Shown piece by piece: positions 13,814 to 32,354 of a DNA stretch of 64,000 nucleotides. Position numbers and translations under genes: made by a program. The stretch covers positions 2,046,001 through 2,110,000 of the forward strand of contig NZ_CP027236.1 of NCBI RefSeq assembly GCF_002999235.1. Direction: 5' to 3'. The notes beneath the pieces were generated by a model that was not told where the DNA came from, did not search any database, and was given only the letters and a program-made list of their open reading frames with translations. Every line of letters begins with the position of its first letter. The stretch's first letter is position 1. This stretch comes from Actinomyces sp. oral taxon 897. GTDB lineage: Bacteria > Actinomycetota > Actinomycetes > Actinomycetales > Actinomycetaceae.

Positions 13814-13891
13814 CCGTTCTCACGGGCAATAAGTACCGTTCTCACGGGCAATAAGTACCGTTCTCACGACGAACAAGTACCGTTCTCACGG
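13814..13891. repeat. 22-bp tandem repeat, CCGTTCTC family (array A1)
   Basis: Units start at 13814, 13836 and 13858, and a truncated fourth (CCGTTCTCACGG) ends at 13891. Each unit is CCGTTCTC, then a variable stretch, then AAGTA. The array stops 22 bp from the ispD stop codon. The same family recurs at 23229, 27622 and 32255. Confidence 0.9.
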
Positions 13892-13913
13892 ACGGGGGAC
13901 GACGGGGGACGGC

Positions 13914-14723
13914 CTAGGCCCGGCTCGTGCCCAGGAGGGTGCGAGCCAGGGCCAGGTCCCGGGGCGTGGTCACCTTAAAGGCCAGGGGGTCCCCGGCCAC
14001 GACCGTGACAGGCCGTCCAAGGGCCTCCACCAGGGAGGCGTCGTCGCTGGCGGCGAGGCCCTCGTCCTGGGCCCGACGGGACCCGGCGTGGTGGGCGGCC
14101 ACCAGGACGGCGGTCTCAAAGCCCTGAGGGGTCTGGACGGCGCGCAGCCGGGAGCGGTCCGGGGTGCCGACGACGAGCTCCGGGGAACCGGCCGGGGCCA
14201 GCTCCACCTCCTTGACGGTGTCGGCCACGGGCAGGGCCGGGATCACGGCGCAGGCACCGCCGCGCACGGCCCCCACCACGCGCACCACCACCTCCGGGGG
14301 GGTCAGGGCCCGGGCGGCGTCGTGCACGAGGACCACGTCGGCGTCGGGCACGGCGCGCAGGGCGGCCTCCAGCCCCCGGGCCACACTGGCCTGGCGGGAG
14401 ACGGGCGAGCCGGCCACGACCTCAATGGTGCAGGCGGGCTCGCTCACGCCGTCGGGCAGGCTGTCCGAGGGTGCCGGGGCGAGGCCGTCAGCCTCACCCT
14501 GGAGGGCACCGTGCAGGCCGCTGACCTGGGCGGCAAAACGCGCCAGGGAGTCAATAGGGGCGGTAACCACAATGTGGTTGACGACGCCGGAGTCGACCAG
14601 CCCCTGGGCGGCACGGCGCAGGAGCGACTGCCCCCCCACCTCGACCAGGGCCTTGGGGCCGTCCGCCCCCAGGCGGGTCCCCGAACCGGCTGCTGTCAGG
14701 ACCGCCACCGCGTGTGTGCTCAT
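13914..14723 (-). CDS. ispD: 2-C-methyl-D-erythritol 4-phosphate cytidylyltransferase
   Basis: Third step of the MEP isoprenoid pathway: joins CTP and MEP to give CDP-methylerythritol. The nucleotide-binding N-terminus VAVLTAAGSGTRLGADGPKA is intact, and VLVHDAARAL and LRAVQTPQGFE are diagnostic. At 269 residues it is slightly long because of a Leu/Ala/Asp-rich insert around residues 75-100. It follows carD in the same direction, a common actinobacterial pairing, but here they are separated by 364 bp of repeats, and no ispF follows. The ATG has no obvious ribosome-binding site. Confidence 0.93.
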   Translation of the reverse strand: MSTHAVAVLTAAGSGTRLGADGPKALVEVGGQSLLRRAAQGLVDSGVVNHIVVTAPIDSLARFAAQVSGLHGALQGEADGLAPAPSDSLPDGVSEPACTIEVVAGSPVSRQASVARGLEAALRAVPDADVVLVHDAARALTPPEVVVRVVGAVRGGACAVIPALPVADTVKEVELAPAGSPELVVGTPDRSRLRAVQTPQGFETAVLVAAHHAGSRRAQDEGLAASDDASLVEALGRPVTVVAGDPLAFKVTTPRDLALARTLLGTSRA

Positions 14724-15087
14724 GGGGGGATCCTACCGGTCACCGGGGCCGGGGCGAACCAGCGCCTCTGGTGGGTTGCCATGCACCCGCCCCGGGACAA
14801 GGCAACCGCCCTGGAGAGCACCGCCCCTCGGGGCAGGTGGGGTCGACGGCGTCGGACCGTGGCGCTCCCGGGGACCGGTCACCCCTCGACGCCCCTCAGC
14901 ACCCCCGCCGCCGCGGCACCGGGGGAACTGCGCCTGCGGCGTCCTGGAGGCCCCGCCAGGCCACCCGCCGCGGCACCGGGGGAACTGTCAGACGCACCCG
15001 TACGCGCGGGAGGAGCGCTGGCTGGCGGCCCGGTGGCAGGCCAGCTGGCGAAGACGCACCCGTAGGTGCGGGAGGAGCGCGGACGGC
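14724..15087. repeat. carD-ispD spacer with paired repeats about 57-61 bp apart
   Basis: GCGGCACCGGGGGAACTG appears with flanking CGCC at 14909-14930 and 14966-14987. GACGCACCCGTA followed by GCGGGAGGAGCGC appears at about 14991 and 15053. The two pairs are interleaved over 180 bp. No coding sequence is supported. Because carD and ispD are usually adjacent, this looks like expansion of an ordinary operon spacer. Confidence 0.65.
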
Positions 15088-15582
15088 TCAGGCGGCGACG
15101 CCGGAGGCCAGGACCTCGTCCAGCTTGGCCTCGGCGGCGTCCTCCTCGGTCTTCTCCGCCAGCGCCAGCTCGGAGACCAGGATCTGGCGGGCCTTGGAGA
15201 GCATGCGCTTCTCCCCCGCGGACAGGCCGCGGTCGGTGTCACGCCGGGAGAGGTCGCGGACGACCTCGGCGACCTTGTTGACGTCACCGGAGGCGATCTT
15301 CTCCTGGTTGGCCTTGAAGCGGCGGGACCAGTTGGAGGGTTCCTCGGTCAGGGGGGAGCGCAGGACGTCGAAGACCTTCTCCAGGCCCGCCTGGTCCACG
15401 ACGTCGCGCACGCCTATGAGCTCGACGCTGTCAGCGGGGACGAGGATGGTGAGGTCGCCCTGGGCGACCTCCAACTGCAGGTAGGTCTTCTCCTCGCCAC
15501 GGACCTTGCGCTGGCGGATGTCAATGATCCGGGCCGCGCCGTGGTGGGGGTAGACGACAGTCTCTCCGACTTTAAAGGTCAT
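15088..15582 (-). CDS. carD: CarD-family RNA polymerase-binding regulator
   Basis: A 164-residue protein that binds the RNA polymerase beta subunit and stabilises open promoter complexes, essential in mycobacteria. The N-terminal polymerase-interaction domain reads [19 protein letters not shown]. The C-terminal helical DNA-binding domain includes [15 protein letters not shown] and [17 protein letters not shown], with the conserved Trp. ATG 15582 gives the canonical N-terminus; longer frames lack homology. Just upstream on the minus strand is TGACGTCA, a perfect 8-bp palindrome, within a comparatively AT-rich leader that probably contains the promoter. Confidence 0.95.
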
Positions 15583-15687
15583 GTGTGACGTCACTCCAGA
15601 CTCATAGTGATACTCCACTTTATCAGGAGAACACGTGAACTTCCTGGGGAGGTTGCTCACATAAGGCCGCCACGCCGACGAGGGTCC

Positions 15688-16404
15688 CTACTGACCGGCC
15701 TCCAGCTTGTAACCCACCCCCCGCACGGTGGTGAGCATCCGGGGCCGGGAGGGCTCGACCTCGATCTTGGCCCGGATCCGCTTGACGTGCACGTCGAGGG
15801 TCTTGGTGTCCCCCACGTAGTCCGCCCCCCAGATCCGCTCAATGATCCGCCCCCGGGTCAGGACGTGGTCGGGGTGGCGCAGGAAGAGCTCCAGGAGCTC
15901 GAACTCCCGCAGGGGCATGGTCACGCCCTGCCCGTCCACGGTCACCTCGTGGCGCTCCACGTCCATGCGCACCCGCCCCACGGTCAGGATCTTCTCCTGG
16001 GGCTCGGCGGGCGCGGCGGCCTCCCGGCTGCGTCGCAGGACCGCGTGGACCCGGGCAATGAGCTCACGGTAGGAGTAGGGCTTGGTCACGTAGTCGTCCG
16101 CACCGGTCTCCAGGCCCAGGATCTTGTCGGTCTCGGAGTCCCTGGCGGTGAGCATAATGACCGGTACCCGTGAGACGGTGCGGATACGACGGCACACCTC
16201 GGTGCCGGGCACCGCCGGCAGCATGAGGTCCAGCAGGACCAGGTCGATCGCCCCGCCCCCGCCGGGGGCCGCGGCGGCCTGGAAGGCACGCAGGGCGGTC
16301 CTGCCGTCACCGGCCTCCACCACCTCGTAGCCGTCACGCCGGAGCCTGAAGGCCAGGGGGGCGCGGTAGTTCTCCTCGTCCTCCACGAGCAGGATGCGGG
16401 TCAT
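15688..16404 (-). CDS. regX3: RegX3-like response regulator
   Basis: OmpR/PhoB-type regulator of 238 residues. The receiver domain has ILLVEDEE (acidic pocket), phospho-acceptor Asp59 in LLDLMLP, the conserved Thr in MLTARD and Lys in VTKPYS. The winged-helix domain has PLREFELLELFL and DVHVKRIRAKIE. It overlaps the upstream kinase gene in ATGA. Adjacency to a SenX3-like kinase and divergent phoU matches the mycobacterial senX3-regX3 phosphate-response locus, so control of phosphate-starvation genes is likely. Confidence 0.92.
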   Translation of the reverse strand: MTRILLVEDEENYRAPLAFRLRRDGYEVVEAGDGRTALRAFQAAAAPGGGGAIDLVLLDLMLPAVPGTEVCRRIRTVSRVPVIMLTARDSETDKILGLETGADDYVTKPYSYRELIARVHAVLRRSREAAAPAEPQEKILTVGRVRMDVERHEVTVDGQGVTMPLREFELLELFLRHPDHVLTRGRIIERIWGADYVGDTKTLDVHVKRIRAKIEVEPSRPRMLTTVRGVGYKLEAGQ

Positions 16405-17696
16405 GGGACGGTCCTCTCTCCACGGGGCTGGGAACGGAGCGTCCCCACGGTGTCGGTGGGGTCGGTCGGGGGGTTAATGGCGGCCAGCGCCGTGAAGGCG
16501 CCCCCGGCGGCACGGATCTCCTCCGCGCTGGGGACCTCCTCGTCGTCCTCGGGCGCCGGGAGGAACCGCGGCAGGACGAGGGTGAAGGTGCTGCCCCGGC
16601 CGGGGGCGGACCACAGCTCCACGGTCCCTCCGTGGTCGGCGGCCACGTGCTTGACAATGCTCAGCCCCAGGCCGGTGCCCCCGGTGGCGCGCGAGCGGGC
16701 CTTGTCCACCCGGTAGAACCGCTCAAAGACCCGCTCCTGGTCCGCCTTGGCGATACCGATGCCCTGGTCCACGACGGCGATCCGCACCAGGTCCGGGTGC
16801 GCCCCGTCCACGCTGACCCCCACGCTGACGCGGGTGCGCTCCTCGGAGTAGCGGACGGCGTTGTCCAGCAGGTTGCGCACAGCGGTGGTGACCAGGGCGG
16901 CGTCGCCCCACAGGCTCAGGCCCCTGACGCCCCCGGAGACCAGGGTGATGCCGCGGGAGCGGGCCTCCACGCGCACCCGGTCCAGGGCCTCGGCCACGAC
17001 GGCGTCCACGTCCACCTCCTGGGGGCTGACCAGCGCGTCACCGTCCTGGAGGCGGGAGAGCTCGATAATCTCCTGCACGAGGGTGCCCAGGCGGGAGGCC
17101 TCCTTGCGCATGCGCCCGGCGAAGTCGCGCACCAGGGCGGGGTCCTCGGCCCCCTCCTCCAGGGTCTCGGCCAGCAGGGCCATGGCGCCGACGGGGGTCT
17201 TGAGCTCGTGGGACACGTTGGCCACGAAGTCCCGGCGCATGTCCTCCAGGCGCTGGGCGGCGGTACGGTCCTCAATGAGGATGAGGACCCGGTCGCGCCC
17301 GATGGCCGCCACCCGCACCCGGAGGTGGAAGTGCCCGGCCCCGCTCACCCGGCCCCGGGCCACGACAATGGTGTCGTCCTGGATCCTGCCGGTGGCCCGC
17401 ACGCGCGCCACCATGGCGGCGACCTGCGGCTCACGCAGGGTGTCGTCACGCACGATATTGAGGGTGTAGGCCGCCGCGGAGGCGCGCAGGACCTCGTCGT
17501 CGTCGTCGAGGACCACGATCGTGGACGGCAGGGCCGCCAGGACCGGCAGGACGCCGTCACCCCCGCCCAGCAGGGAGTCGTCCGAGCCGGTGGCCTGCGG
17601 GTCCACGGAGGCGGAGGCGCTAATGGCGAGCCCCACGGCCACGCCGACCGTGGCACCCAGGAGGGCGACGACGACGAGCAGCCAGGTGTGGTCCAC
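16401..17696 (-). CDS. senX3: SenX3-like sensor histidine kinase
   Basis: A 431-residue kinase with one N-terminal helix (residues 5-27), a PAS-like region (about 50-140), and the H-box DFVANVSHELKTPVGAM with phospho-acceptor His163. The ATPase motifs are N (RNLLDNAVRYS), G1 (VVDQGIGIA), F and G2 (GGTGLGLSIVKH). The start is GTG 17696. The short extracellular part argues against a large ligand-binding sensor; in relatives the signal comes through PhoU and the phosphate transporter. It is co-translated with regX3. Confidence 0.92.
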   Translation of the reverse strand: MDHTWLLVVVALLGATVGVAVGLAISASASVDPQATGSDDSLLGGGDGVLPVLAALPSTIVVLDDDDEVLRASAAAYTLNIVRDDTLREPQVAAMVARVRATGRIQDDTIVVARGRVSGAGHFHLRVRVAAIGRDRVLILIEDRTAAQRLEDMRRDFVANVSHELKTPVGAMALLAETLEEGAEDPALVRDFAGRMRKEASRLGTLVQEIIELSRLQDGDALVSPQEVDVDAVVAEALDRVRVEARSRGITLVSGGVRGLSLWGDAALVTTAVRNLLDNAVRYSEERTRVSVGVSVDGAHPDLVRIAVVDQGIGIAKADQERVFERFYRVDKARSRATGGTGLGLSIVKHVAADHGGTVELWSAPGRGSTFTLVLPRFLPAPEDDEEVPSAEEIRAAGGAFTALAAINPPTDPTDTVGTLRSQPRGERTVP

Positions 17697-18094
17697 GCAC
17701 CTAGGTTAGACGACGGCGGTGGCTGGCTCCGGGGTGGGGCGGCGGTGGCCGGCTCTAGAGGGCGGCGGCTGGCTCCGGGGGCGGCGGTGGCCAGCTTCGG
17801 GGCTGGCGGCTCCGGGGTGGCCAGCTCCGCGATGGGGCTGGCGGGGACAGCTTCGGGGTGAGGCAGTTGCCTGGGGGCGGGCTACCGGGGTCAGGGACGG
17901 GACGCCGGGGCCAGGACACCGGGGCCGGACGCCAGGGCCAGCACCAGGACACCGGGGCGGGGCGGCATCGGGGCCAGCGCACCGGCAGTGGGGCACGGCG
18001 CTTGGCACCTGGCGTGGTGACAGTCCACACTGTGAGTGCCCCGTGCCCCCGGCGAGCCCGGGGGCCGCCGCCTCGCAAGGACAGGAGCCGTCTC
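17697..18094. other. Divergent senX3/phoU promoter region with G-rich repeats
   Basis: 398 bp between two divergent starts. The senX3-proximal 180 bp is strikingly G-rich on the plus strand, with repeated GGCTGGCTCCGGGG and GGCGGCGGTGGCC, capable of G-tract structures. 17895-17990 repeats GACACCGGGG. Nearer phoU, ACAGT-CCAC-ACTGT (18020-18033) is a short inverted repeat that could be an operator. No gene is present. Confidence 0.45.
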
Positions 18095-18739
18095 GTGCGT
18101 GACATCTTCAACCAGGAGCTCAGGCAGCTGGGCTCCGACCTTGAGTCCATGGCCCGTCAGGTGGCCACCGCCATTGAGCGTGCCTCCGAGTCCCTGCGCA
18201 ACGGCGATATTATCGTCGCCGAGCAGGTGATTGACGCCGACGAGCGCATTAACGACCTTCAACGTGATATTGACGACCTGTGCGTCATGCTCCTGGCCCG
18301 TCAGCAGCCGGTGGCCGGCGACCTGCGCGCGGTCATCTCCGCCCTGCGCATGGCCCAGACCCTGGAGCGCCAGGGCGACCTGGCCCGCCACGTGGCCTCG
18401 ATCGCACGCGGCCGCTACCCCGAGCCGCCGGTGCCCGAGCCGGTCATGGGCCTGATCCTGCAGATGGCCGACGCCGCCGTGCGAGCCGGCCAGAACACCT
18501 CCCGTCTGGTGGCCACCCGCGACCTGGAGCTCGCCGCCCTCATTGAGGCCCAGGACGCCGAGCTCGACGCCCTCCACCGCCGCTCCTTCACCATGATCCT
18601 GGACCCGGCCAACGACCTCACCCGCCAGCAGGTGGTCGACGCCGTCCTCATGGGCCGTTTCCTGGAGCGGTTCGGGGACCACTCCACGTCGGTGGCACGC
18701 CGGGTCTCCTACCTGGTCCTAGGCAGCCTGAGCTACTGA
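18095..18739 (+). CDS. phoU: PhoU-like phosphate signalling regulator
   Basis: A 214-residue all-helical protein that links the Pst phosphate transporter to the SenX3 kinase and keeps the response off when phosphate is ample. The start VRDIFNQELRQLGSDL and the paired metal-binding motifs (ADERINDLQRDID near 50 and ELDALHRRSF near 150) are typical; two PhoU repeats span roughly 15-100 and 115-200. GTG 18095 follows AAGGACAGGAG; the longer upstream frame passes through repeats. It is divergent from senX3-regX3. Confidence 0.93.
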   Translation: MRDIFNQELRQLGSDLESMARQVATAIERASESLRNGDIIVAEQVIDADERINDLQRDIDDLCVMLLARQQPVAGDLRAVISALRMAQTLERQGDLARHVASIARGRYPEPPVPEPVMGLILQMADAAVRAGQNTSRLVATRDLELAALIEAQDAELDALHRRSFTMILDPANDLTRQQVVDAVLMGRFLERFGDHSTSVARRVSYLVLGSLSY

Positions 18740-18752
18740 GCCTCCCATCCTA

Positions 18753-18880
18753 GACGTACCTTAGACACCGGGGACGTACTTTAAGTGCAGAGGACAGCAC
18801 CCTAGGGTACGTCGGCGGTGTCTAGGGTACGTCGGCGTCATCTAAGGTACGTACCCGATACCTAAGGCACGTCGACGGCA
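18753..18880. repeat. Convergent 20-bp repeat array, core GTACC/TTAG (array C)
   Basis: This lies between the convergent ends of phoU and a glycosyltransferase gene. Forward units start GACGTACC at 18753, GACGTACT at 18773 and GACAGCACC at 18793. Inverted units CTAGGGTACGTC, CTAGGGTACGTC, CTAAGGTACGTA and CTAAGGCACGTC start at 18802, 18822, 18842 and 18862. Period is 20 bp on each side with a dyad near 18800. The sequence differs from array B1 but the geometry is the same. Confidence 0.85.
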
Positions 18881-18917
18881 GGGCGTGCCAGTGGCGGAGG
18901 CCCGGTGACCGCCGGGC

Positions 18918-19859
18918 TCATTCCTCCGACAGGCCCTCGCCGGTGCGGCGCCGCGGGGTCCGGTGCAGGACCTGGTACCTGAGGTAGCCGTCGGCCAGGC
19001 CCGCGTCCCGGGCCAGGCGCATGCGCCACTCCCGCCAGGCGAGCCGGTCGCGCCTGGCCAGGGGCCTGACCACGGCCAGGCAGGTCTTGAGGAGCACCAG
19101 GACCGGCGGGCCCTGCACAATGGAGGCCCGCCCCCACCGGCCGCTGCGGGTCAGGAGCAGGGCGGTGGAGCGTGCCCGGCGTCGGAAGAGGGCGTAGCTG
19201 CGGTCCCCCGCTGGCTGGATCCGGTAGGCCAGCATGGTGCTGGGCAGCACCGGCGGCAGGTGCCCCGCGTCGGTGCAGCGTATCCCGAGGTCGTTGTCCT
19301 CCGCCCCCGGCTCCGCGGAGGGGTCAAAGCCCCCGACCTTGAGGAACAGGTCCCGGCGGATCCCGAAGCAGCCTCCCGGCAGGACCGGCCAGTCCTGGTC
19401 CTGCCGCTCCTCCTGGGGGGAGCAGTAGTCGTGCTCCTCGAGCTGGTCGGTGACGGCGTCGTAGCCCTGCCTGAAGACCTTCTCCTCCACGCCGATAAAG
19501 GCGGTGACGTACACCGGGACCTCCTCCAGGGCCCGCTGGCCGTGGGCCACGAAGTGGGGGGCCACCAGGTCGTCACCGTCGCAGAAGAGCAGCTTGGCCC
19601 CCCAGCAGAGCGCCACGCCGCGGTTACGGGCGTAGGCGGCGCCCGGTCTGTCGGCGGCGTCCACCACCCGCAGGTCCAGGCGGTCCGCCCAGGAGCGGGC
19701 CACGGCCACGGTGTCGTCGGTGGAGCCGTTGTCCACCACCACGACCTCAAAGGGCTCGGCATCCTGCTGGCGCCAGAGGGCCTCCAGCTGGAGGCCGAGG
19801 GTCCTCCCGACGTCGTGGCAGGGGATAATGACCGACGTCGTCACCTGGGTATCGGACAC
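18918..19859 (-). CDS. Family 2 glycosyltransferase
   Basis: A 313-residue GT-A fold transferase. TSVIIPCHDVGRTL is the nucleotide-sugar binding start, VVVVDNGSTDDTV the second motif, and LLFCDGDDLV carries the DxD metal site. GGCFGIRRDLFLKVGGFDPS and AEDNDLGIR are the acceptor-side motifs. A hydrophobic stretch near the C-terminus (VLVLLKTCLAVV) suggests membrane association. GTG 19859 is preceded by GGTGGAG and gives the correct N-terminus; the frame upstream is intergenic repeat. Likely role: building a surface glycan. Donor and acceptor are unknown. Confidence 0.85.
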   Translation of the reverse strand: MSDTQVTTSVIIPCHDVGRTLGLQLEALWRQQDAEPFEVVVVDNGSTDDTVAVARSWADRLDLRVVDAADRPGAAYARNRGVALCWGAKLLFCDGDDLVAPHFVAHGQRALEEVPVYVTAFIGVEEKVFRQGYDAVTDQLEEHDYCSPQEERQDQDWPVLPGGCFGIRRDLFLKVGGFDPSAEPGAEDNDLGIRCTDAGHLPPVLPSTMLAYRIQPAGDRSYALFRRRARSTALLLTRSGRWGRASIVQGPPVLVLLKTCLAVVRPLARRDRLAWREWRMRLARDAGLADGYLRYQVLHRTPRRRTGEGLSEE

Positions 19860-19911
19860 GTCTCCACCCTCTCGTCGCAGCAGCACGCGGGCACACACTA
19901 CCGCAGGCAGG

Positions 19912-20061
19912 GGGTGGCGGCAGCCAGGCGCGGGCCGGGCACGAGATCGTCGCCTCCCTGGCCCGGCGTAGTGGCAGCGCGACAGGCGCGGGCCGGGCAT
20001 CTCAGCGCGCATAGGCGCGGGTGCGCGACGGTGGCGGCAGCCAGGCGTGGGCCGGGTACGA
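19912..20061. repeat. GGTGGCGGCAGCCAGGCG repeats at the end of the methyltransferase gene
   Basis: A 32-bp sequence beginning GGTGGCGGCAGCCAGGCG at 19912 recurs at 20030 with three changes. A shorter relative (GACAGGCGCGGGCCGGGCAT) sits at 19980. The second copy encodes the last residues of the adenine methyltransferase, so the repeat crosses from spacer into the gene's 3' end. Confidence 0.7.
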
Positions 20062-20976
20062 CCGCCCGCAGGCCGGGCCCACCAGCGGGGCCGCCGCCGT
20101 GGACCCGGGCAGGGCCTCTCCCACGGTGAAGCAGGTGATCGCACCTGTCACCAACGCATCAGCGAAGGGGACCGCCTCAGGGTCCAGGACGTGCACGGAG
20201 TAGGCAGCAAAAGGACCCAGGAGGAGCTCACGGAGCATACGTCCGTACTGAACGTCCAGCCACTCGCTGCTGGTGACAAAGACTCCGAAGTCCCCCGGAC
20301 GCGCCAGCCGGGCGGTGGCGAGGAAGAAGTGGATGTGCAGCCCGGCCAGGGCGCTGGGGTGCAGCCCCTGGGCCCTGGCGGTCTCGGTCAGCCACGCCTT
20401 CCACCGCGGTGCGATGCCGTGGTGGCGGACGAACGGGGGGTTGCCGATGAAGAGCGTGGGGCCATCGACCGCGTCGAGCCTGAGCTCGCGGTAGTCGCCC
20501 AGTACCACCTCGACACGCTCGGACAGGCCCATGACGTGGGTGCCGGCCCGAGTCATGAGCGTGGCCAACGGGTCAACGTCGCAGGCGACGACGTCCGCCC
20601 CGGGGAACACCGTCGCCGCTGCGAGCGTGAACCTCCCCGAGCCGCAGCCGGGATCCACGACGCGCACCGGCCTGCCGTGGTCAGCCGCCCACGCCGTCAT
20701 CGCCTCAATAATCGACGCCGGCGTGTAGGTCTGCCCGAGCGCCCGCCTGCCCTCGGGGGGCACCACCTGACGGTAGGCGTCACCGAGCGGGTCGCCACCG
20801 GCCAGGACCAGGTCCCGGGTCGCGGCCACCACGTCCTCGGTCGGGCACGTGCCCGCCGCGGCCAGGTCCTGCTCCTCGGCACTGAGGCCGTCAGCGCCCT
20901 CGGCCCCGTCCAGGAGCCCCAGGCAGAGCGCGGCAAGGTCCGCACGCCGGGAGCCGGTAGCGTCAGGTCGGGTCAC
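20002..20976 (-). CDS. Short N6-adenine DNA methyltransferase, C-terminus probably lost
   Basis: A 324-residue protein with the order of a gamma-type adenine methyltransferase: GQTYTPASIIEAM, motif I VVDPGCGSGRFT (about 105-115), DVDPLATLM, and the catalytic LFIGNPPFVRHH (NPPF near 175). VFVTSSEWLDVQYG and ALVTGAITCFTVGE match the Eco57I-like branch, whose members usually continue for hundreds of residues with a target-recognition domain. Here the chain stops soon after, in residues encoded by a local repeat. GTG 20976 follows AGGGAGG. No restriction enzyme gene is nearby. It is either an orphan methylase or a truncated relic. Confidence 0.72.
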   Translation of the reverse strand: MTRPDATGSRRADLAALCLGLLDGAEGADGLSAEEQDLAAAGTCPTEDVVAATRDLVLAGGDPLGDAYRQVVPPEGRRALGQTYTPASIIEAMTAWAADHGRPVRVVDPGCGSGRFTLAAATVFPGADVVACDVDPLATLMTRAGTHVMGLSERVEVVLGDYRELRLDAVDGPTLFIGNPPFVRHHGIAPRWKAWLTETARAQGLHPSALAGLHIHFFLATARLARPGDFGVFVTSSEWLDVQYGRMLRELLLGPFAAYSVHVLDPEAVPFADALVTGAITCFTVGEALPGSTAAAPLVGPACGRSYPAHAWLPPPSRTRAYAR

Positions 20977-23228: not shown

Positions 23229-23350
23229 CCGTTCTCGCGGGCAATAAGTACCGTTCTCGCGACGAATAAGTACCGTTCTCGGCACAAACAAGTACCGTTC
23301 TCACGACGAACAAGTACCGTTCTCACGGCAAACAAGTACCGTTCTCGCGA
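23229..23350. repeat. 22-bp tandem repeat, CCGTTCTC family (array A2)
   Basis: Five complete 22-bp units start at 23229, 23251, 23273, 23295 and 23317, followed by a half-unit to 23350. It is the longest of the four arrays of this family. The half-unit lies 17 bp from the stop codon of the acyltransferase gene. Frames through it give meaningless rotating peptides such as NKYRSR and EQVPFSR, because 22 is not a multiple of three. Confidence 0.92.
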
Positions 23351-23367
23351 AAGAGGGCGGTGGGCGG

Positions 23368-24441
23368 CTAACGCGACCAGCGGGAACGGATCCACCGCTG
23401 CGCCGGGCGCTCGACGGCGTAGTGCAGGGCCTCGGCAGCCAGGAGGCACGCCGCGAGCAGCCCCAGGGCCAGCGCCACGCGGCCGACCCCGCCCGACGGT
23501 GCGGGCAGGTGGGGGACGACGTTGACGAGCAGGAGCTCGTGCACCAGGTAGAAGCAGAAGGAGACAATCCCCAGGTGCTCCATGAGACTGGTACCGAGAA
23601 CCCCCTTGCGCCCGTAGACGTCGGCCAGGGCGGCGGCCACGATCAGGAGGGCGAAGGCCGGGGTCATGAGGACACCGGCGAGGACCTGGGAGTGCACCGT
23701 CTTCAGCACAACACCGTAGGACCCCACGACGGCGAGCACGCCGACCCACACCGGGGGTGCCCACCGGGCCCGGCCCCTGCGGACCAGCTCGGCCATGAGG
23801 ATGCCGACGGCGAACTCCCCCGAGCGCACCAGCGGGAGGGTGTAGGCCCATATGTCCGCCTCGTGGCTGACCCCGGAGATCGCCAGGCCGGACAGCGCCG
23901 CCACCGCCCACCATGTCAGGAGGAGCGCAGCGGCCCCGCCGTCCGAGCGGCGTCGCACCGCGGTGATCACCCAGGGCGCGAGCAGGTAGAAGAAGGCCTC
24001 ACAGGACAGCGACCAGCTCACGGCGTTGAGGGCGAAGGCGATCCGGTCGGAGGGGAACCACGACTGCACCAGGGCGATGCTCGCCAGGTCCCCCAGGAGC
24101 GGCCTGCCCACCGTCACCAGGGGCACCACGAGCGCGACCAGGGACATGACCAGGTGGGAGGGGTACACGCGCGCGACACGGTTGACCCAGAACCGGCGCG
24201 GCTCCACGCGGTCCCCGCGGGAGGACCAGGTGAGCACGAACCCGGACAGGACGAAGAAGAAGGCGACCCCGACGTAACCGACCCGTGAGGTCTGGCCCCC
24301 GAGCGCCCACGGCCCCAGCCGGGGCAGGTGGTAGGCGAACACCAGGAGCGCCGCGAAGGCCCGCATCCCGGTGAGCCGGGGGAGGTTCCCGGCGGGCGGG
24401 GTGAGGTGGCGCCCCGCCCGCCGGGCCACGGCCTCAGGCAT
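23368..24441 (-). CDS. Family 3 membrane acyltransferase (OafA-like)
   Basis: A 357-residue integral membrane O-acyltransferase with about ten helices. The start LTGMRAFAALLVFAYH carries the conserved Arg and catalytic His of the Acyl_transf_3 family, followed by GVAFFFVLSGFVLTW and RRFWVNRVARVYPSHL. Such enzymes acetylate sugars of surface polysaccharides or peptidoglycan. Its start overlaps the end of the upstream glycosyltransferase gene by 8 bp, so the two are probably co-expressed and act on the same glycan. Confidence 0.88.
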   Translation of the reverse strand: MPEAVARRAGRHLTPPAGNLPRLTGMRAFAALLVFAYHLPRLGPWALGGQTSRVGYVGVAFFFVLSGFVLTWSSRGDRVEPRRFWVNRVARVYPSHLVMSLVALVVPLVTVGRPLLGDLASIALVQSWFPSDRIAFALNAVSWSLSCEAFFYLLAPWVITAVRRRSDGGAAALLLTWWAVAALSGLAISGVSHEADIWAYTLPLVRSGEFAVGILMAELVRRGRARWAPPVWVGVLAVVGSYGVVLKTVHSQVLAGVLMTPAFALLIVAAALADVYGRKGVLGTSLMEHLGIVSFCFYLVHELLLVNVVPHLPAPSGGVGRVALALGLLAACLLAAEALHYAVERPAQRWIRSRWSR

Positions 24442-25658: not shown

Positions 25659-25905
25659 GGTGAACGCGCTCTTGTGCAGGTGAACGCGCTCTGGGCCGGG
25701 TGAACGTGCTCTTTGTGCAGGTGAACGTGCTCCGGGTCGGGTGAGCGTGCCCAGAGGCTGGTGAACGCGCTCTTGGTTGGGTCAACGCCGTTCTAGCTGG
25801 CGTTTACCAGGACGGAAGCGCGTCCATACACGTGAGACGGCGTCTACCTGCCCCAGAACGCGTTCACCTCAACCCAGTCCGATGCGCGGGCACCCCCCGG
25901 ATGCC
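25659..25905. repeat. Symmetric 20-bp repeat array, core GGTGAACGC (array B2)
   Basis: Forward units start at 25659, 25679, 25699, 25720, 25740, 25760 and 25780. Inverted units (GGCGTTTACC, GCGCGTCCA, GGCGTCTACC, ACGCGTTCACC) start near 25799, 25819, 25839 and 25859. The dyad centre is near GTTCTAGCTGG. From about 25750 the sequence is almost the same as array B3 at 27180. The segment 25403-25658 before it is repetitive (CCCTCCCCCGACGGCGGC twice) with no gene. Confidence 0.88.
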
Positions 25906-26011
25906 CTGGGGCCGTGTGGGAGCGGGCCCGCACCTGGGCCCGGAACCCCTGCACACAGGGCAGCCCTACTGCCACCGGGGAACAGCGGGCAGGCGTCCCC
26001 GCGCGCCGCCG

Positions 26012-26644
26012 TCAGTCGTTCGTGGGCGGCCACTCACCGGAGTGCACCACCGAGGAGGAGGCCTCGTCCCACGTGAAGATCGAGACCGAGCGTCCCGAGG
26101 CCATCGCGTTGGCCTCGTTCTCGCGCGGCCACGTGTAGGTGACCTGGATCACCCCGTCACCAAGGCGCACCACCTTCGGGTAGAACCCGATCATCCGGTC
26201 GCTGGTGACGCCAATGTACTCACCGTGGTGGAAGAGCATAATCTGGCAGGGCGAGGAGACCGTGCCCATCTCGATCGACAGGACGATCCAGGACAGGGCG
26301 GCGCAGGGGTCGTAGGTGGAGGTGTCCGTGTACGTGGTGTCCCAGGCCCAGCCCCTGAAGGTCCGTACCCGGGACACCCAGGTGCTCAGGGCCTCGGCCC
26401 CTGACTTGTCAGAGCACGTCGACGTCGGGCTCGGCTTCGGGCTCAGCGGGACCCCAGTGACCTGCGTCGTCGCCTCCTCGCTGGGACCCGGCAGGGCCTG
26501 AGCGCTGGTGGACTGGGCCGTGGGGCCGTCCGCCTCGGTCGGCTCGGAGCGGGGCGAGTCCTGGCACCCGGTCAGCAGGACCGGCAGGGTCAGGAGGGCG
26601 CAGGCGGCGAGGACTGGTGTTCGGCGTGAAGCGGGATGCGACAT
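26012..26644 (-). CDS. Lipoprotein of unknown function
   Basis: A 210-residue exported lipoprotein: basic N-terminus, hydrophobic core and lipobox LLTGC at residues 23-27, then a Ser/Thr/Pro-rich spacer to about 75. The globular part has three further cysteines and aromatic-rich blocks (TWVSRVRTFRGWAWDTTYTD, GVIQVTYTWPRENEA). I do not recognise the fold. AAGGA 6 bases before ATG 26644 is a good ribosome-binding site. The gene stands alone, flanked on both sides by near-identical B-type repeat arrays (B2 and B3), an arrangement that could allow gain or loss by recombination. Confidence 0.78.
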   Translation of the reverse strand: MSHPASRRTPVLAACALLTLPVLLTGCQDSPRSEPTEADGPTAQSTSAQALPGPSEEATTQVTGVPLSPKPSPTSTCSDKSGAEALSTWVSRVRTFRGWAWDTTYTDTSTYDPCAALSWIVLSIEMGTVSSPCQIMLFHHGEYIGVTSDRMIGFYPKVVRLGDGVIQVTYTWPRENEANAMASGRSVSIFTWDEASSSVVHSGEWPPTND

Positions 26645-27089
26645 TGAGCGTCCTTAACTAGGTGTGCTTCTCTGGGCGGCTGTGGACGGTTGGATTGAGA
26701 GGTCTTCGGCGGGATGTGGGTTGGCGCGCCTGCGTCGCCTTCCCAAAGACCTTCGTGACCCACGCTAACGCACTGCTGACCCCTGGGGGACGACGCCGCC
26801 TGGCCGCCTGCGTCGTCGACGGTGGCTGGCTGCTGCTGTGGGCCGCCGGGCGGTTCCAGGCGCCCCCGCCACAGCCGGGCGTGCGGGCCGGGCTGCTGCG
26901 GCGGGTGCGTGCGCCTTCAGGCCGCCGGGCGGTGGGCCAGCGTCCACATGCCCCAGGCCGCCCCCGCCGGGTGGCGGGCCAGGCTGCTGCCGGACCGGCC
27001 TGCCCGTGACCGACCGCTCCAGCCGCCCTCGCCACGGCCCCGACCGTCTGCGGGCGCTGACACCGGGCAGCCGGTCCCACACGCCCTCA
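26645..27089. other. Intergenic region upstream of the lipoprotein gene, no gene called
   Basis: The first 60 bp hold the lipoprotein leader. From 26830 on, GC-rich near-repeats of GGCCGCCGGGCGG and CGGGCCGGGCTGCTGC dominate. A plus-strand frame reads RRRLAACVVDGGWLLLWAAG, faintly like the start of an RDD domain, but it degenerates at once into repeat sequence, so I do not call a gene. Confidence 0.4.
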
Positions 27090-27395
27090 GGTGAGCGTGC
27101 CCTGGTCTGGGTGAACGCGCTCTGGGCCGGGTGGACGCGCCCAGAGGTTGGTGAACGTGTTCTTGGTCGAGTAAGCGTGTTCCGAGGCTGGTGAACGCGC
27201 TCTTGGTTGGGTCAACGCCGTTCTAGCTAGCGTTCACCTGGACGGAAGCGCGTCCATACTCGTGAGATGGCGTCTACCTGCCCCAGAGCGCGTTCACCTC
27301 CACTTAGTCCGACGCGCGGGCACACCGTTCTCACTGCCGGCGAGCCGCGTCTGGGGCATCTCAACCCAGCCCGACGCGCGGGCACACCGGCAGAG
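27090..27395. repeat. Symmetric 20-bp repeat array, core GGTGAACGC (array B3)
   Basis: Forward units start at 27090, 27110, 27130, 27150, 27170, 27190 and 27210 with exact 20-bp phase. Inverted units start near 27229, 27249, 27269 and 27289. The dyad reads GTTCTAGCTAGCGTTCACC. Beyond it, CGACGCGCGGGCACACCG occurs at about 27310 and 27372, and a lone CCGTTCTCAC of the A family sits at 27326. About 130 bp around the dyad match array B2 almost exactly. Confidence 0.88.
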
Positions 27396-27621
27396 CAGAC
27401 GGGGCCCGGCGTCTCCCGGGACGAGCCGCCGCGAGCACCTGGCCGGAGGTGGCGGCGGCCCAGGCCCAGGCCCCTCCCGGGACGAGCCCACCACCACCAC
27501 CGGCACCACGCGGACAACACGCCCAGAAGACGAGCACACCGAGAAGACCACCCGGCACCCGGCGCACCCACCCCGACCCGCACCCACCAACCAGCCCAGA
27601 CAGGACCACTGCAAGCACCCC

Positions 27622-27699
27622 CCGTTCTCACGACAAACAAGTACCGTTCTCACGACGAACAAGTACCGTTCTCACGACGAATAAGTACCGTTCTCGCGA
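27622..27699. repeat. 22-bp tandem repeat, CCGTTCTC family (array A3)
   Basis: Three full units start at 27622, 27644 and 27666, with a half-unit ending at 27699. It lies 63 bp beyond the mfd stop codon. The preceding stretch 27396-27621 is rich in CCACCACCACC-like runs without coding signal. Confidence 0.9.
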
Positions 27700-27762
27700 A
27701 CAGAAAGGCGGGAGGGGAGGGGCCAGCTCGGCGGCCTCACCGACGGCGTCAGTACCCGGGCC

Positions 27763-30700
27763 TCACCGGCGGCGTCGGTACCTGGTGGCCTCGGCCTCGT
27801 AGTCCTTGTCGCCGACCACCACGGCCCGCAGGAGCACCTCCGCCCAGCGCAGCAGCTCCTCGCCCTCGACCGCGCCCCCGCCCATGCGGGCGCTGCCCGG
27901 GGCGGGGACCACGATGGTGCGGGTGGCGGGCTTGAGGACGGTCCCCGGGTACAGGCGCGTCAGCCGCATACGCCCGGACTCGGGCAGGTCCACCGGCGCG
28001 AAGCGTACCGACTTGCCCTGGGCCACGATCTCACGCACCCCCAGGGAGGCGGCCAGGGCGCGCAGCCGGGCCAGGTCCGCCAGGCGTGCGGTGGCCGGTG
28101 GCACCGGCCCGTAGCGGTCGGCCAGCTCCTCCAGGACGTCGCGCACATCCGTCTCGCTGCGGGCGGCGGCGAACTTGGTGTAGGCCTCCAGGCGCAGGCG
28201 CTCGTGAGGGATGTAGTCCTCGGGGACGGTGGCGTCCACCGGCAGCTCCACGCGCAGGTCCTCGTCGACCCCCGCCTCGGCGTCGGCGTCGGCACCGACC
28301 TTGAGGGCCTTCTTGTAGGCGGCCACGGCCTCGGTGACCATGCGCACGTACAGGTCGAACCCCACCCCGGCGATGTGCCCGGACTGCTCCCCTCCCAGCA
28401 GATTGCCGGCCCCCCGGATCTCCAGGTCCTTCATGGCCACCTGCATACCCGCCCCCAGGTCGGTGTTGGTGGCGATCGTGCGCAGGCGCTCCAGGGCGGT
28501 CTCGGTCAGGGGCCGCTCACCCGGGTAGAGGAAGTAGGCGTAGGCGCGCTCCCGGCCCCGCCCCACGCGCCCGCGCAGCTGGTGGAGCTGGCTCAGGCCC
28601 ATACGGTCGGCACGGTCCACAATGAGGGTGTTGGCGTTGGACACGTCCAGGCCGGTCTCGACGATGGTGGTGCACACCAGCACGTCGATCTCCTTGTGCC
28701 AGAAGTCGTCAATGACCCGCTCCAGGCGGGCCTCGCCCATCTGCCCGTGGGCGGTGGCCACCCGGGCCTCGGGCACCATCTCGGCCAGGCGGGAGGCGAC
28801 GGCGTCAATGTCCTCCACCCGGTTGTGGACGTAGAAGACCTGGCCGTCCCTCAGCAGCTCACGACGGACGGCGGCTGAGACCTGCCTGGCCTCGTAGGCG
28901 CCCACGTAGGTCAGGATGGGGTGGCGGTCCTCGGGCGGGGTGGCCAGGGTGGACATCTCCCGCAGGCCGGTGACCGCCATCTCCAGGGTGCGCGGGATGG
29001 GGGTGGCGGACATGGACAGCACGTCCACGTCGGTGCGCAGCGCCTTGAGGGTCTCCTTGTGCTCCACCCCGAAGCGCTGCTCCTCGTCAATGACCACCAG
29101 CCCCAGGTCCTTGAAGCGCACCCGCCCGGTGATGAGGCGGTGGGTGCCCACCACCACGTCGATGCTGCCGTCGGCCAGCCCGGCCAGGACCTGGGCGGAC
29201 TCGGCGTCGGACTGGAAGCGGGAGAGCTGGGCCACGCGCACGGGGAAGCCCGCGTAGCGCTCGGTGAAGGTCTCGGCGTGCTGGCTCACCAGGAGGGTGG
29301 TGGGCGCCAGGACGGCCACCTGCTTGCCGTCGGCCACGGCCTTGAACGCGGCACGCACGGCGATCTCGGTCTTGCCGTAGCCGACGTCGCCGCACACCAG
29401 GCGGTCCATAGGCTGGGGCCTCTCCATGTCAGCCTTGACCTCGTCAATGGTGGCCAGCTGGTCGGGGGTCTCAGTGTAGGGGAAGGCCTCCTCCAGCTCC
29501 GCCTGCCAGGGGGTGTCGGGGCCGAATGCGTGCCCGGTGGTGGCGGACCGGGCGGCGTAGAGGCGCACCAGCTCGCCGGCGATCTCGCGCACGGCCTTGC
29601 GGGCCCTGGACTTGGTGCGCGCCCAGTCGGCGCCGCCCATCTTGCTCAGGGCCGGGGCGTCCCCACCGACGTACTTGGTCACCTGGTCCAGGGCGTCGGT
29701 GGGCACCAGGAGGCGGTCGCCGGGCTGGCCGCGGCGGGAGGGGGCGTACTCAATGACCAGGTACTCCCGGGTGGCGGCGGAGCGGGGGCCGCCCACGGCG
29801 CGCCGGCTGAGCTCGACGAAGCGGCCGATGCCGTGCTGGGCGTGGACCACCAGGTCGCCGGCGTGCAGCGACAGGGGGTCCACGCTCCTGCGGGAGCGGC
29901 GGGCGGGAAGGGTCTTGGCCCCGCGCGGGCCAGCCGGGGACCGCCCGGTGAGGTCGGACTCGGCGACCAGGGCCAGGCGCAGGCCGGGGGCCAGGAAGCC
30001 GTGCCCGGTAGCGGCCTGGGTGACGCGCACGACGCCGTCGCCCCGGGCGGGTCCAGCAGCAGGCGGGGCGGCCAGGTCGGTGGGCTCGGGGGTGACGGGG
30101 TCGGCGCCGGATCCACCCGAGGCGGAGTCACCCCCTGGGGCGGGGCGGTAGCCCAGGTCGGCGGGCTCGTCGAGGTGGGTGACCATGCGGGCGGGGACGT
30201 CGGCGTCGACCAGGAGCTGGGCCATGCGCCGGCCGGGGCCGGGCCCGTCGGTGGCCACGACGACCGCCCAGCCGTCACGGGCCATGGCCCCCAGGTCGGA
30301 CACGGCCTCCTGGAGCTGGCCCCGGTAGGTGCGGGGCTCTCTCAGGGGCAGCGTGACGGTCCGCTCGGAGGGGGGCAGGGAGGTCAGCGACCACCAGCCG
30401 AGGTTGCGCGACAGGGCCAGGGCGCGGGCCTCGCCCAGGGGCGCGAAGGCGGCGGCGGACAGGTCCACCGGGACGGTGCCCCCGGACGCGGCCGAGGTCC
30501 AGGCGGCGGCCAGGAACTCGCTGGTGGTGGCCACCAGGTCCTCGGCACGACGGCGCACCCTCTCGGGCTCCAGGACCACGGTCAGGCGGTCGCCCACGAG
30601 GTCCAGCAGGGGCACCATGCGCTCAGCGAGCACCGGGGCCAGGGACTCCATGCCCTCCACCGGGACGCCGTCGGCGATCTTGGCCAGCATGTCGGCGGCG

Positions 30701-31710
30701 CCGGGGATGGCGGCGGCGGCCCGGGCGGCCCGGGAGCGGACGGCGTCGGTGAGCAGGATCTCGCGGCAGGCGGTGGCGGTGACGGAGGTGAGCTCGGTGA
30801 TCGTGCGCTGGTCGGACACGGAGAAGGAGGACACCGACTCGATCTCGTCGCCGAAGAGGTCCACGCGCACCGGACGCGGCTCGGTAGGCGGGAAAAGGTC
30901 CAGAATGCCGCCGCGTACCGCGAACTCGCCGCGCCTCTCCACCATGTCCACGCGCGTGTAGGCGGCCGCGCCCAGGCGGGCGGCCACCTGGTCCAGATCC
31001 AGGCGCTGACCGCGGACCAGGTGGAGGGGCTCGAGCTCACCGAGCCCGGCGATGACGGGGGCCAGCAGGGCGCGCACCGGCACCACCAGGACTCGCACGG
31101 GGCCCGCGCAGCGCTCGTCGTGCGGGTGGGCCAGGCGGCGCAGGACGGCCAGGCGGGCGGCCACCGTGTCGGCGCGCGGGGAGAGGCGCTCGTGGGGCAG
31201 GGTCTCCCAGGCGGGGAAGACGGCGACCTCGGCGTCAGGCAGGTAGCAGGTCAGGGCGGCGGCGGTCTCCTCGGCCTGGCGCCCGGTGGCGGTGACCACC
31301 AGCAGGGGGGTGCCCGTGGTGGTGGGGGTACGCCGCTCCCCCGGGGTCGTGGCCTGGGAAGGGGCGGAGGACGTGAGGGTGGGTGCGGCCGCCTGGGCCG
31401 CGGCGGGTGCGGCCGCCGGGGTCGTGAGGGGGGCCGCGGTAGATGCGGCGGGGGCGGGGGCTGTGGGCGCGGGAGCAGGGGCGGGCGCCGAGGCTGTGGA
31501 GGCGGGTGCGGCGGGCGCGGGCGGGATGGTGGCACCGGTGGCGCGGGCGACGCCGTCGGCTCCCAGCGTCAGGGCCGCCAGGACGGCGGGACGCGCACCT
31601 GGGGCGACGACGACGGTGCGGTCGGTGCGGGTCCGGCTGCTGGCCGCGGCGACGAGGTCGGCAGTCGTCGGGTCGGTGAGCAGCGGGGGCAGGAGGGCGG
31701 TCAGGCGCAC
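27763..31710 (-). CDS. mfd: Transcription-repair coupling factor
   Basis: A 1315-residue translocase that removes stalled RNA polymerase and recruits UvrA to lesions. In order: a UvrB-like N-terminal module (LVVTATGRQAEETAAAL to FPAWETLPHERLS), the polymerase-interaction region (DPLSLHAGDLVVHAQHGIGRF, a CarD/RID-type domain), a RecG-like motor with VCGDVGYGKTEIAVRAAFK (Walker A), VVIDEEQRFGVEHK (DEEQ box) and GRVGRGRERAYAY (motif VI), and the C-terminal TRCF domain. An Ala/Pro/Thr-rich insertion of about 70 residues lies near position 60-130. GTG 31710 is the start. No operon partner is visible. Confidence 0.96.
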   Translation of the reverse strand: MRLTALLPPLLTDPTTADLVAAASSRTRTDRTVVVAPGARPAVLAALTLGADGVARATGATIPPAPAAPASTASAPAPAPAPTAPAPAASTAAPLTTPAAAPAAAQAAAPTLTSSAPSQATTPGERRTPTTTGTPLLVVTATGRQAEETAAALTCYLPDAEVAVFPAWETLPHERLSPRADTVAARLAVLRRLAHPHDERCAGPVRVLVVPVRALLAPVIAGLGELEPLHLVRGQRLDLDQVAARLGAAAYTRVDMVERRGEFAVRGGILDLFPPTEPRPVRVDLFGDEIESVSSFSVSDQRTITELTSVTATACREILLTDAVRSRAARAAAAIPGAADMLAKIADGVPVEGMESLAPVLAERMVPLLDLVGDRLTVVLEPERVRRRAEDLVATTSEFLAAAWTSAASGGTVPVDLSAAAFAPLGEARALALSRNLGWWSLTSLPPSERTVTLPLREPRTYRGQLQEAVSDLGAMARDGWAVVVATDGPGPGRRMAQLLVDADVPARMVTHLDEPADLGYRPAPGGDSASGGSGADPVTPEPTDLAAPPAAGPARGDGVVRVTQAATGHGFLAPGLRLALVAESDLTGRSPAGPRGAKTLPARRSRRSVDPLSLHAGDLVVHAQHGIGRFVELSRRAVGGPRSAATREYLVIEYAPSRRGQPGDRLLVPTDALDQVTKYVGGDAPALSKMGGADWARTKSRARKAVREIAGELVRLYAARSATTGHAFGPDTPWQAELEEAFPYTETPDQLATIDEVKADMERPQPMDRLVCGDVGYGKTEIAVRAAFKAVADGKQVAVLAPTTLLVSQHAETFTERYAGFPVRVAQLSRFQSDAESAQVLAGLADGSIDVVVGTHRLITGRVRFKDLGLVVIDEEQRFGVEHKETLKALRTDVDVLSMSATPIPRTLEMAVTGLREMSTLATPPEDRHPILTYVGAYEARQVSAAVRRELLRDGQVFYVHNRVEDIDAVASRLAEMVPEARVATAHGQMGEARLERVIDDFWHKEIDVLVCTTIVETGLDVSNANTLIVDRADRMGLSQLHQLRGRVGRGRERAYAYFLYPGERPLTETALERLRTIATNTDLGAGMQVAMKDLEIRGAGNLLGGEQSGHIAGVGFDLYVRMVTEAVAAYKKALKVGADADAEAGVDEDLRVELPVDATVPEDYIPHERLRLEAYTKFAAARSETDVRDVLEELADRYGPVPPATARLADLARLRALAASLGVREIVAQGKSVRFAPVDLPESGRMRLTRLYPGTVLKPATRTIVVPAPGSARMGGGAVEGEELLRWAEVLLRAVVVGDKDYEAEATRYRRRR

Positions 31711-31739
31711 GGCGAGCAGTCTAGAGGGAGGGGCCCGGC

Positions 31740-32030
31740 TCCAGGATCCCGGACCGGGCGGGGCCGACGGTGGTCCAGGAGGTCGGGAACGAGGAGGCCC
31801 AGAATCCCGGATCCGGCGGAGGCCGACGTCGGGACGGTTTTAGGCCGGGCTCGGTACGGCCCACAGGCTCTCGGTACGACCCATGGACTCACCAGATTGC
31901 ACGGCTTCTTGCGAACTGCACGAGCTCTTGCGCGATCCCTTGAGGCCCGCGGAATCATGCGGATTTCCCGGGGTCGCCCAGAGAGCCGGTACAGAAACTC
32001 GTGAGATCTGCAAGAACTAGTGCGACCTGC
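31740..32030. repeat. Mixed 20-bp and 59-bp repeats upstream of mfd
   Basis: A 30-bp block with ATCCCGG and GGCCGACG occurs at 31740 and 31799 (59 bp apart). CTCGGTACG lies at 31850 and 31870. ATTGCACGGCTTCTTGCG at 31896 and ACTGCACGAGCTCTTGCG at 31916 are direct 20-bp units. CTGCAAGAACTAGTGCGACC near 31999 is the same motif inverted, giving a head-to-head layout as in arrays B and C. 32031-32254 shows nothing further. Confidence 0.7.
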
Positions 32031-32254
32031 GGGCCGCACCTCGTGGGCGGCCCCGGGACCAGCTGCCTGAGGCCGCAGGCAGCTGCGGACCGCACCTGGG
32101 GCCCGTGAACAGCCGGATAATCCGTAGGCGTTGGCGGCGTCCGCCTCATGGGTGCCCGCCCCGCACCAGGAGGCACGAGGCAGGCGACCACCGGAAGGTC
32201 ACTTACGAGGAGCTCATGAGCGGCTGGCGCACACAGGCCCGGCGCTATCGCCGC

Positions 32255-32354
32255 CCGTTCTCACGAGCAATAAGTACCGTTCTCGCGACGAACAAGTACC
32301 GTTCTCGCGGCAAACAAGTACCGTTCTCGCGGCAAACAAGTACCGTTCTCGCGG
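32255..32354. repeat. 22-bp tandem repeat, CCGTTCTC family (array A4)
   Basis: Four full units start at 32255, 32277, 32299 and 32321, and a half-unit (CCGTTCTCGCGG) ends at 32354. The next base is the first base of the TAA stop (minus strand) of the phosphorylase-like gene, so the array begins directly after the stop codon in the transcript. Confidence 0.92.

Follow-up and report, generated by a model that had tools for sequence, protein, structure and literature searches.

Several described systems bear a partial likeness to the element considered here, a family of 22-bp repeat arrays lying beside gene ends in Actinomyces sp. oral taxon 897, which we follow from the window, a 64-kb stretch of its chromosome (contig NZ_CP027236.1, positions 2,046,001 to 2,110,000), to the genome and the genus. 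Iterons of plasmid origins are phased direct repeats of about 22 bp, approximately two helical turns, a spacing that fits cooperative protein binding. Eukaryotic ribosomal DNA terminator boxes bound by TTF-I/Reb1 are polar tandem protein sites located past gene ends, while DNA uptake sequences (DUS/USS) consist of a dispersed short motif with inverted pairs near gene 3′ ends. Repetitive extragenic palindromic sequences (REP/BIME) and the REPINs associated with the RAYT transposase resemble the arrays in being intergenic, of high copy number, species-specific in sequence and arranged in inverted pairs. The nearest analogue is provided by sets of TAACTGA direct repeats in marine Beggiatoaceae, which are described as lying for the most part immediately upstream of start codons, with a proposed role in translational control (PMC4679880).

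The Actinomyces arrays differ from each of these. Compared with the Beggiatoaceae repeats, they have another sequence, lie mostly past stops in the oral taxon 897 genome, and form back-to-back pairs. They share phased rows of direct repeats with iterons, but more than 100 of them are dispersed over the chromosome at gene edges, and no Rep protein was found, although none was sought. From uptake sequences they are set apart by the 22-bp step and by being tandem, polar and intergenic. Should our interpretation be right, the boxes of TTF-I/Reb1 would be alike in kind, although the present case is bacterial, concerns about 100 dispersed gene ends and involves a protein that is only predicted. High copy number, intergenic location and species-specific sequence agree with REP and REPIN families, whereas a palindromic unit of 20-40 bp and a RAYT are lacking; the arrays instead consist of non-palindromic direct units at a 22-bp step with a polar G-rich front, and lack a Y1 transposase. 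They seem to form a family of elements at gene boundaries that has so far gone undescribed. No description of a 22-bp array family was found in the open-access literature, searched mainly by titles and with subscription journals largely outside the search.

The window contains four such arrays, 22, 17, 63 and 0 bp from the stop codons of minus-strand genes, with a unit that reads roughly CCGTTCTC[A/G]CGNNNAA[C/T]AAGTA (22 bp). Every one of them comprises 3-5 full units and then a trailing half unit, CCGTTCTC[A/G]CG. With two mismatches allowed, the 13-bp junction AAGTACCGTTCTC was found 15 times in the window, always exact and always on the plus strand, against 0.24 expected. The family had been described at these four loci in an earlier note on this DNA, and its positions, unit numbers and distances to the stop codons agree with ours. 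In the whole 3.25-Mb genome the junction has 419 exact copies (220 + 199), and a reversed control has none. From 75 stretches fetched around arrays we placed 123 arrays with 374 junctions (at most one mismatch), a lower bound since at least one tenth of the junctions lie outside the placed set. Genes were called by a codon-usage script, not taken from curated annotation, and some starts and stops can be expected to be wrong.

Each array lines up 2-8 cores with a defined polarity, one every 22 bp (about 2.1 helical turns), and has a fixed front and a sharp back boundary. In the fetched stretches, neighbouring same-strand cores within 120 bp are 22 bp apart in 348 of 352 cases (the others 44, 44, 44 and 42), and an intergenic scan open to steps of 15-40 bp ranked 22 first here and in the relatives G187, G201, G202 and G003, most of the G187 stretches not having been selected for arrays. 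The front reads core-[A/G]CG in 122 of 123 arrays and leads into a tract with 61% G over its first 20 nt, which falls to background after about 40-50 nt. G-richness is equal beside the 96 facing stops and the 27 facing starts, with 38-40% G in a control of 488 array-free gene 3′ flanks taken as reverse complement. As it is present for either direction of the neighbouring gene, the tract belongs to the array and not to the transcript. Position within the row matters too, base 9 of the unit being A in 87 of 103 first units and G in 96 of 123 trailing half units. The middle of the unit, a spacer, exists in a small set of variants reused among arrays; recurrence in different arrays rules out a CRISPR array, which needs unique spacers. 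Tandem duplication was rejected as the chief origin of the arrays, since units next to each other resemble one another no more closely than they do in permuted order (mean distance 2.78 vs 2.62; 103 arrays); that some tandem duplication does happen is indicated by 26 identical neighbours among 216, where 11.5 are expected.

Placement relative to genes is far from random. At the front, the nearest called gene presents its stop in 96 of 123 arrays and its start in 27 (p = 3e-10), at median distances of 44 and 98 bp, respectively. Of the 121 arrays flanked by called genes on either side, 106 have a gene closer to the front than to the back (medians 51 and 373 bp). In these stretches, which were selected around arrays, an array occupies 44 of the 86 gaps between convergent genes, 50 of the 344 between codirectional genes and 9 of the 85 between divergent genes. 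Codirectional gaps hold 33 stop-facing and 12 start-facing arrays without a back partner (p = 0.002). The earlier note had the arrays always past a stop, which holds for the four window arrays and fails genome-wide, where 27 of 123 fronts lie at starts. Its argument that placement is non-random gains from these ratios (96:27 and 33:12) and from the recurrence at orthologous 3′ ends described below. A fixed orientation, which it also claimed, is contradicted by the fronts that face starts and by the relatives, in which partnerless codirectional arrays divide 14:15 (stop to start) in five species and 2:4 in G164. Equal use of both orientations, including upstream positions, had been named as an outcome that would speak against the proposal; it is not seen in this genome but largely is in the relatives.

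The family is restricted to Actinomyces, as judged by patterns that detect this core only, so that arrays built on another core would escape. Among 200 genomes of the bacterial family, a strict dimer of the oral taxon 897 type occurs 385 times in this genome and once in G197. With one core base left free, dimers were detected in 29 of 49 genus genomes, while control matches were 0 in all 49. The counts are 569 in G187, 385 here, 332 in G202, 250 in G201, 197 in G164, 146 in G185, 87 in G003, 86 in G181 and 82 in G038; other genomes have fewer, several of them 1-3. Trimers are present in 17 of the 49 and in none of 164 genomes from 35 other genera. Each array-rich species possesses its own sequence version with the 22-bp step and the core CCG[A/T/G]TCTC. 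A 30-genome HisS tree scatters the array-rich genomes over several groups; G201, G202 and G187, which have a common unit type, cluster (support 92/83). The single G197 dimer (L112, G197:C1:548835) is exactly of the oral taxon 897 type, possibly the result of transfer.

Arrays of six relatives (G187, G201, G202, G003, G181 and G164) repeat this anatomy. In all of them 22 bp is the commonest core spacing and back-to-back pairing is seen, while the 14 bp between cores are species-specific; direct repeats at near-whole helical turns (22 bp, about 2.1 turns), as in iterons, are thus found in seven species. The front is closer to a gene than the back in 42/47 arrays of G187, 17/24 of G201, 13/19 of G202 (p = 0.2), 27/36 of G003, 11/14 of G181 and 25/34 of G164. 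Pooled, 62 arrays lie in convergent and 20 in divergent gaps (2 vs 4 in G202 alone), and in G164 arrays occupy 10 of 57 convergent, 13 of 238 codirectional and 1 of 56 divergent gaps. Front tracts contain 43-58% G, a figure that stands without the background level of each species. In G187, the arrays L199 near 18088 and L200 near 19868 alternate two unit types, giving a 44-bp higher-order repeat.

How arrays behave over evolutionary time can be followed in the close pair G164 and G003, which yielded 84 reciprocal best hits (median 95% protein identity), 82 of them usable. A 3′ array follows 14 of these genes in G164 and 12 in G003, and 12 in both, that is, all 12 of G003's and 12 of G164's 14. 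The expectation is 2.0 overall, 3.5 on shuffling within the eight shared stretches (12 was reached in 0 of 10,000 shuffles) and 4.5 when only genes with an array or a 3′ gap of at least 50 bp are counted. No usable pair lies in an unselected stretch, so this rate applies to the chosen stretches and not to whole genomes. The 12 shared ends represent 11 distinct arrays, two ends being those of neighbouring genes with one array beyond. Distances to the stop are often identical, and one of G164's four start-facing arrays recurs in G003. The sequence itself has turned over: 34 of 121 positions are changed between front-most spacers (28%; mean 3.09 of 11, random units 3.59) and 21 of 121 between best-matching units (mean 1.91 of 11, best units of unrelated arrays 2.73), and the number of units differs in 8 of the 11 arrays. 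Beyond this pair, the 3′ end of topA bears an array in G003, G164 and G187, and that of a major facilitator superfamily (MFS) transporter-like gene in G181, G201 and G202. In both G003 and G164, an array supplies the C-terminal residues AETGRK and the stop codon of topA and of a TetR-like gene, the latter scoring below the model cut-offs. The same is true of two further genes of these genomes, one ending in AETGRN.

We tentatively interpret the arrays as iteron-like, protein-bound DNA elements, restricted to Actinomyces, that mark the ends of transcription units; that such a protein exists, binds the arrays and affects transcription we infer from the phasing, polarity, distribution and placement and, in one species pair, from the recurrence at orthologous ends despite sequence turnover. 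A constant step and core combined with changing spacers, polarity and held positions is the pattern expected of a row of protein sites, and placement at unit ends, chiefly between convergent genes, suggests a transcription boundary. In such a mechanism, a predicted protein of the genus would bind the phased 22-bp cores cooperatively, and the complex would form a boundary between transcription units, halting RNA polymerase that leaves a gene or an adjoining non-coding island; blocking by the complex would replace an RNA hairpin. In a fuller version, which we consider unlikely, a protein peculiar to the genus would polymerise on the gene-end arrays and take over from hairpin terminators the task of stopping RNA polymerase; its binding sequence would drift by species, while concerted evolution with the protein would keep the more than 100 arrays of a genome uniform. 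If arrays do stop transcription, they would constitute a protein-based terminator or insulator system that serves about 100 gene ends in bacteria of a human-associated genus. They would also show, in nature, over 100 sites and their predicted binding protein changing together from one species to the next.

Several observations weigh against this interpretation. No candidate binding protein turned up, although no search aimed at one was made. In the oral taxon 897 genome 22% of the fronts look toward gene starts, and codirectional arrays of the six relatives face either way about equally often (47 toward stops, 45 toward starts), which leaves oral taxon 897 as the one genome in which a codirectional bias was observed. 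Dimers are lacking in 20 of the 49 genus genomes, and two of these, examined over 200 kb each, contain no other dispersed tandem family; the function would therefore be dispensable or otherwise performed there. The recurrence comes from a single close pair whose overlapping stretches were all array-selected in both genomes, without a non-coding control in the alignment. Cores differ at just 2 of 176 positions in the 11 arrays, an identity that is partly by construction because arrays were detected through their cores. Comparing oral taxon 897 with five relatives gave three shared 3′ arrays where chance predicts about 3.1, several of the species pairs having few common genes (the G201-G181 row consists of two).

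The main and a strong rival regards the arrays as selfish, non-autonomous repeats similar to REP or miniature inverted-repeat transposable elements, spread and homogenised by a putative recombinase or copying activity and surviving where they do least harm, the back-to-back pairs being a two-ended form. We hold this to be quite possible, if on balance doubtful. Patchiness and copy number, from 0 to 569 dimers per genome inside one genus, speak for it, as does the poverty of divergent gaps. Syntenic gaps that hold an array in just one of two species were compared 17 times: the gap with the array is the longer in 14 cases (for example 601 vs 26, 255 vs 50 and 450 vs 10 bp) and the shorter in three (140 vs 213, 536 vs 976 and 222 vs 511); one gap enters against two species, and a G003/G181 case (114 vs 7 bp) was excluded because the G181 gene call had absorbed an array. 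The oral taxon 897 hisS stop codon falls within an array unit, and no same-strand gene follows closely, whereas one begins within 14 bp past hisS in 16 of 29 relatives (counted by position, without assuming that these genes are the same). Adjacent pairs within 1.2 kb are back-to-back (minus/plus) in 16 cases, in the opposite arrangement in one and same-strand in three; uniform random placement, a null that disregards the intergenic location of arrays, predicts 1.4, 1.4 and 2.7, respectively.

Mobility is also suggested by what the arrays flank. Outward-facing arrays enclose three similar copies of a two-ORF cassette (L042:4451-5817, L057:5101-6449 and L105:4642-5999), in which one ORF belongs to DUF6318 and the other has no Pfam match in the copy scanned (L042). 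Single arrays lie past four CRISPR-like arrays, judged as such by eye (L062, L075, L091 and L100, near positions 1397383, 1860170, 2522727 and 2911658), the conserved side of each terminating in a 22-bp array; the four share a long flank and a repeat that reads GTCTTAATGCACCTAGCGGTGCGGGGTGCTCCCTGAC or nearly so. Against selfish spread stand the 12 of 12 G003 3′ arrays that recur in G164 with changed spacers, which is not readily expected of decaying insertions, and the constant 22-bp phasing. Target-site duplications were not seen by eye in a few cases, without a systematic test. A RAYT as mover is ruled out: Y1_Tnp (PF01797) is absent from all 49 genus genomes, while a control search was positive in 5 of 14 named genomes. 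If selfish, the arrays would be a REP-like family that lacks a Y1 transposase and holds its places as its sequence turns over, for which another copying or conversion mechanism would be needed. Since the genus is culturable, both readings are open to direct test.

A role in the transcript was put forward in the earlier note. We regard as improbable an element acting in RNA at transcript 3′ ends, in which Rho would load on a C-rich, G-poor tract and the units would serve for pausing or processing. Over the 40 nt past the stop (or up to the array), array genes have 55% C and 25% G and controls 38% C and 39% G, an excess of C over G of 0.30 vs 0.17 (p = 8e-9) that is rut-like on the gene strand. 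An equal tract, however, lies beside genes running the opposite way. The 22-bp step with changing spacers is also easier to reconcile with DNA binding than with a role in the transcript. Folding agrees: 50 of 81 array segments from this genome gave a mean z of about -0.4 on both strands (mononucleotide shuffles), and stop-to-array spans do not differ from shuffles more than controls do (z -0.31 vs -0.18, p = 0.87). In a first comparison hairpin strength was -14.8 vs -21.8 kcal/mol, a difference confounded by the lower-GC array occupying much of the scored segment. When length-matched, 44 stop-to-array spans of at least 40 nt reached -0.338 vs -0.444 per nt (p = 2e-5), the array genes being less structured. 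T-rich matches occur at 36% of array ends and 2% of controls, with the array itself included in the scored segment, and read by eye the four window arrays have no T-run after a hairpin. An intrinsic terminator is thus ruled out, its folds being no stronger than shuffles, and the view that this is not a standard terminator stands.

The RNA-level reading could also draw on palindromes. The single unit is a non-palindromic direct repeat, as had been proposed, and close inverted-pair palindromes are missing from the oral taxon 897 genome; they are rare in G202 and G164 but common in G003 and G181, where many units make perfect inverted pairs. All 13 close inverted pairs examined in these two genomes have perfect arms, with eight different spacers (shuffled arms match on average 3.2/9 and 1.5/4), and two sites orthologous between G003 and G181 show both arms altered together. 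This joint change may reflect compensation, template-switch correction or replacement as one unit. Template-switch repair can also create perfect palindromes, as can copying as a unit.

Highly improbable, finally, is that paired arrays bracket a boundary or landing site between convergent genes where accessory DNA is gained and lost: the arrays at one pair of gene ends are separated by 8 bp in G003 and by 1.0 kb, with an ORF in the interval, in G164 (topA/TetR-like locus), those at another by 17 bp in G181 and by 11.5 kb, with a third array in the interval, in G201 (MFS-like locus), and oral taxon 897 islands contain the CRISPR-like arrays and DUF6318 ORFs, but there are just two such loci, either state of which may be ancestral, a called gene lies between the arrays in 1 of 16 pairs of this genome (341189/342295), and no integrase is tied to pairs.

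Other candidates fell away on single counts. Replication polarity is excluded by the use of both strands in each sixth of the chromosome (69 plus and 54 minus in total), and a viral origin by the two IMG/VR matches, which resemble unrelated simple repeats. Shared island content was judged on the best 60 of 842 matching pairs, with array-against-array matches unsorted from the rest, and two groups were followed further; with two exceptions elsewhere, the paired islands inspected in this genome look mutually unrelated.

The window arrays and their neighbours are listed below with the genes whose C-termini derive from arrays.

Coordinates of arrays, front tracts and neighbouring genes (window positions unless a locus is named)
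Feature	Position	Strand	Remarks
Array 1	13814..13891	+	3 full units + half unit CCGTTCTCACG; front toward ispD-like stop, 22 bp off
Front tract of array 1	13892..13913	+	G-rich (C-rich on the gene's strand); separates array and stop
ispD-like gene	13914..14723	-	Stop toward array 1; TIGR00453, Pfam IspD
Array 2	23229..23350	+	5 full units + half unit CCGTTCTCGCG; acyltransferase stop at 17 bp
Front tract of array 2	23351..23367	+	Purine/G-rich
Acyltransferase-3 family gene	23368..24441	-	PF01757
Gap behind array 3	26645..27621		977 bp, reaching next called gene (26012-26644, -); contains copies of a second, 20-bp repeat family
Array 3	27622..27699	+	3 full units + half unit CCGTTCTCGCG; mfd stop at 63 bp
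Front tract of array 3	27700..27762	+	Array-proximal part G-rich
mfd, transcription-repair coupling factor	27763..31710	-	TIGR00580, 1004.8 bits
Array 4	32255..32354	+	4 full units + half unit CCGTTCTCGCG; runs up to next gene's stop codon
Phosphorylase-superfamily gene	32355..33224	-	Stop codon adjoining array 4; PF01048
topA/TetR-like pair	L338:5704-8628, L338:9722-10327, L254:1609-2214, L254:2247-5186		Array-derived C-termini

The ispD-like gene scores 180.7 bits with TIGR00453, slightly below the cut-off of 181.3, and 179.5 with Pfam IspD (cut-off 27); for the phosphorylase-superfamily gene the NCBIfam phosphorylase models remain under their cut-offs. Among named species, the Mfd proteins closest to that of the window are 76-81% identical and come from A. 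oricola, A. oris, A. massiliensis, A. bowdenii and A. johnsonii; on this match rests the assignment of the 49 genus genomes to Actinomyces. No dimer of the 22-bp array was found at these five mfd loci, one of which is ended by its contig.

A second intergenic repeat family, GGTGAACGCGC, has a 20-bp step and occurs on both strands in the window (10521-10788, 25659-25787 and 27090-27291); 48 of the 64 copies of its GGTGAACG in the stretches fetched from this genome are intergenic. Among the islands, a gene of a PemK/MazF-like toxin family (PF02452; L100:2303-2644) lies about 1.3 kb from the array beside a CRISPR-like array, and two islands of G187 (L194 1950-2500 and L198 6690-7640) carry the motif CACATGGGAGC, or most of it, in both orientations. 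An inverted motif around CGCAATCTGAGGATCAGA, slightly varied, is present in the islands of the oral taxon 897 arrays 1397383, 1860170, 2911658 and 2677611 and in the L071 gap.

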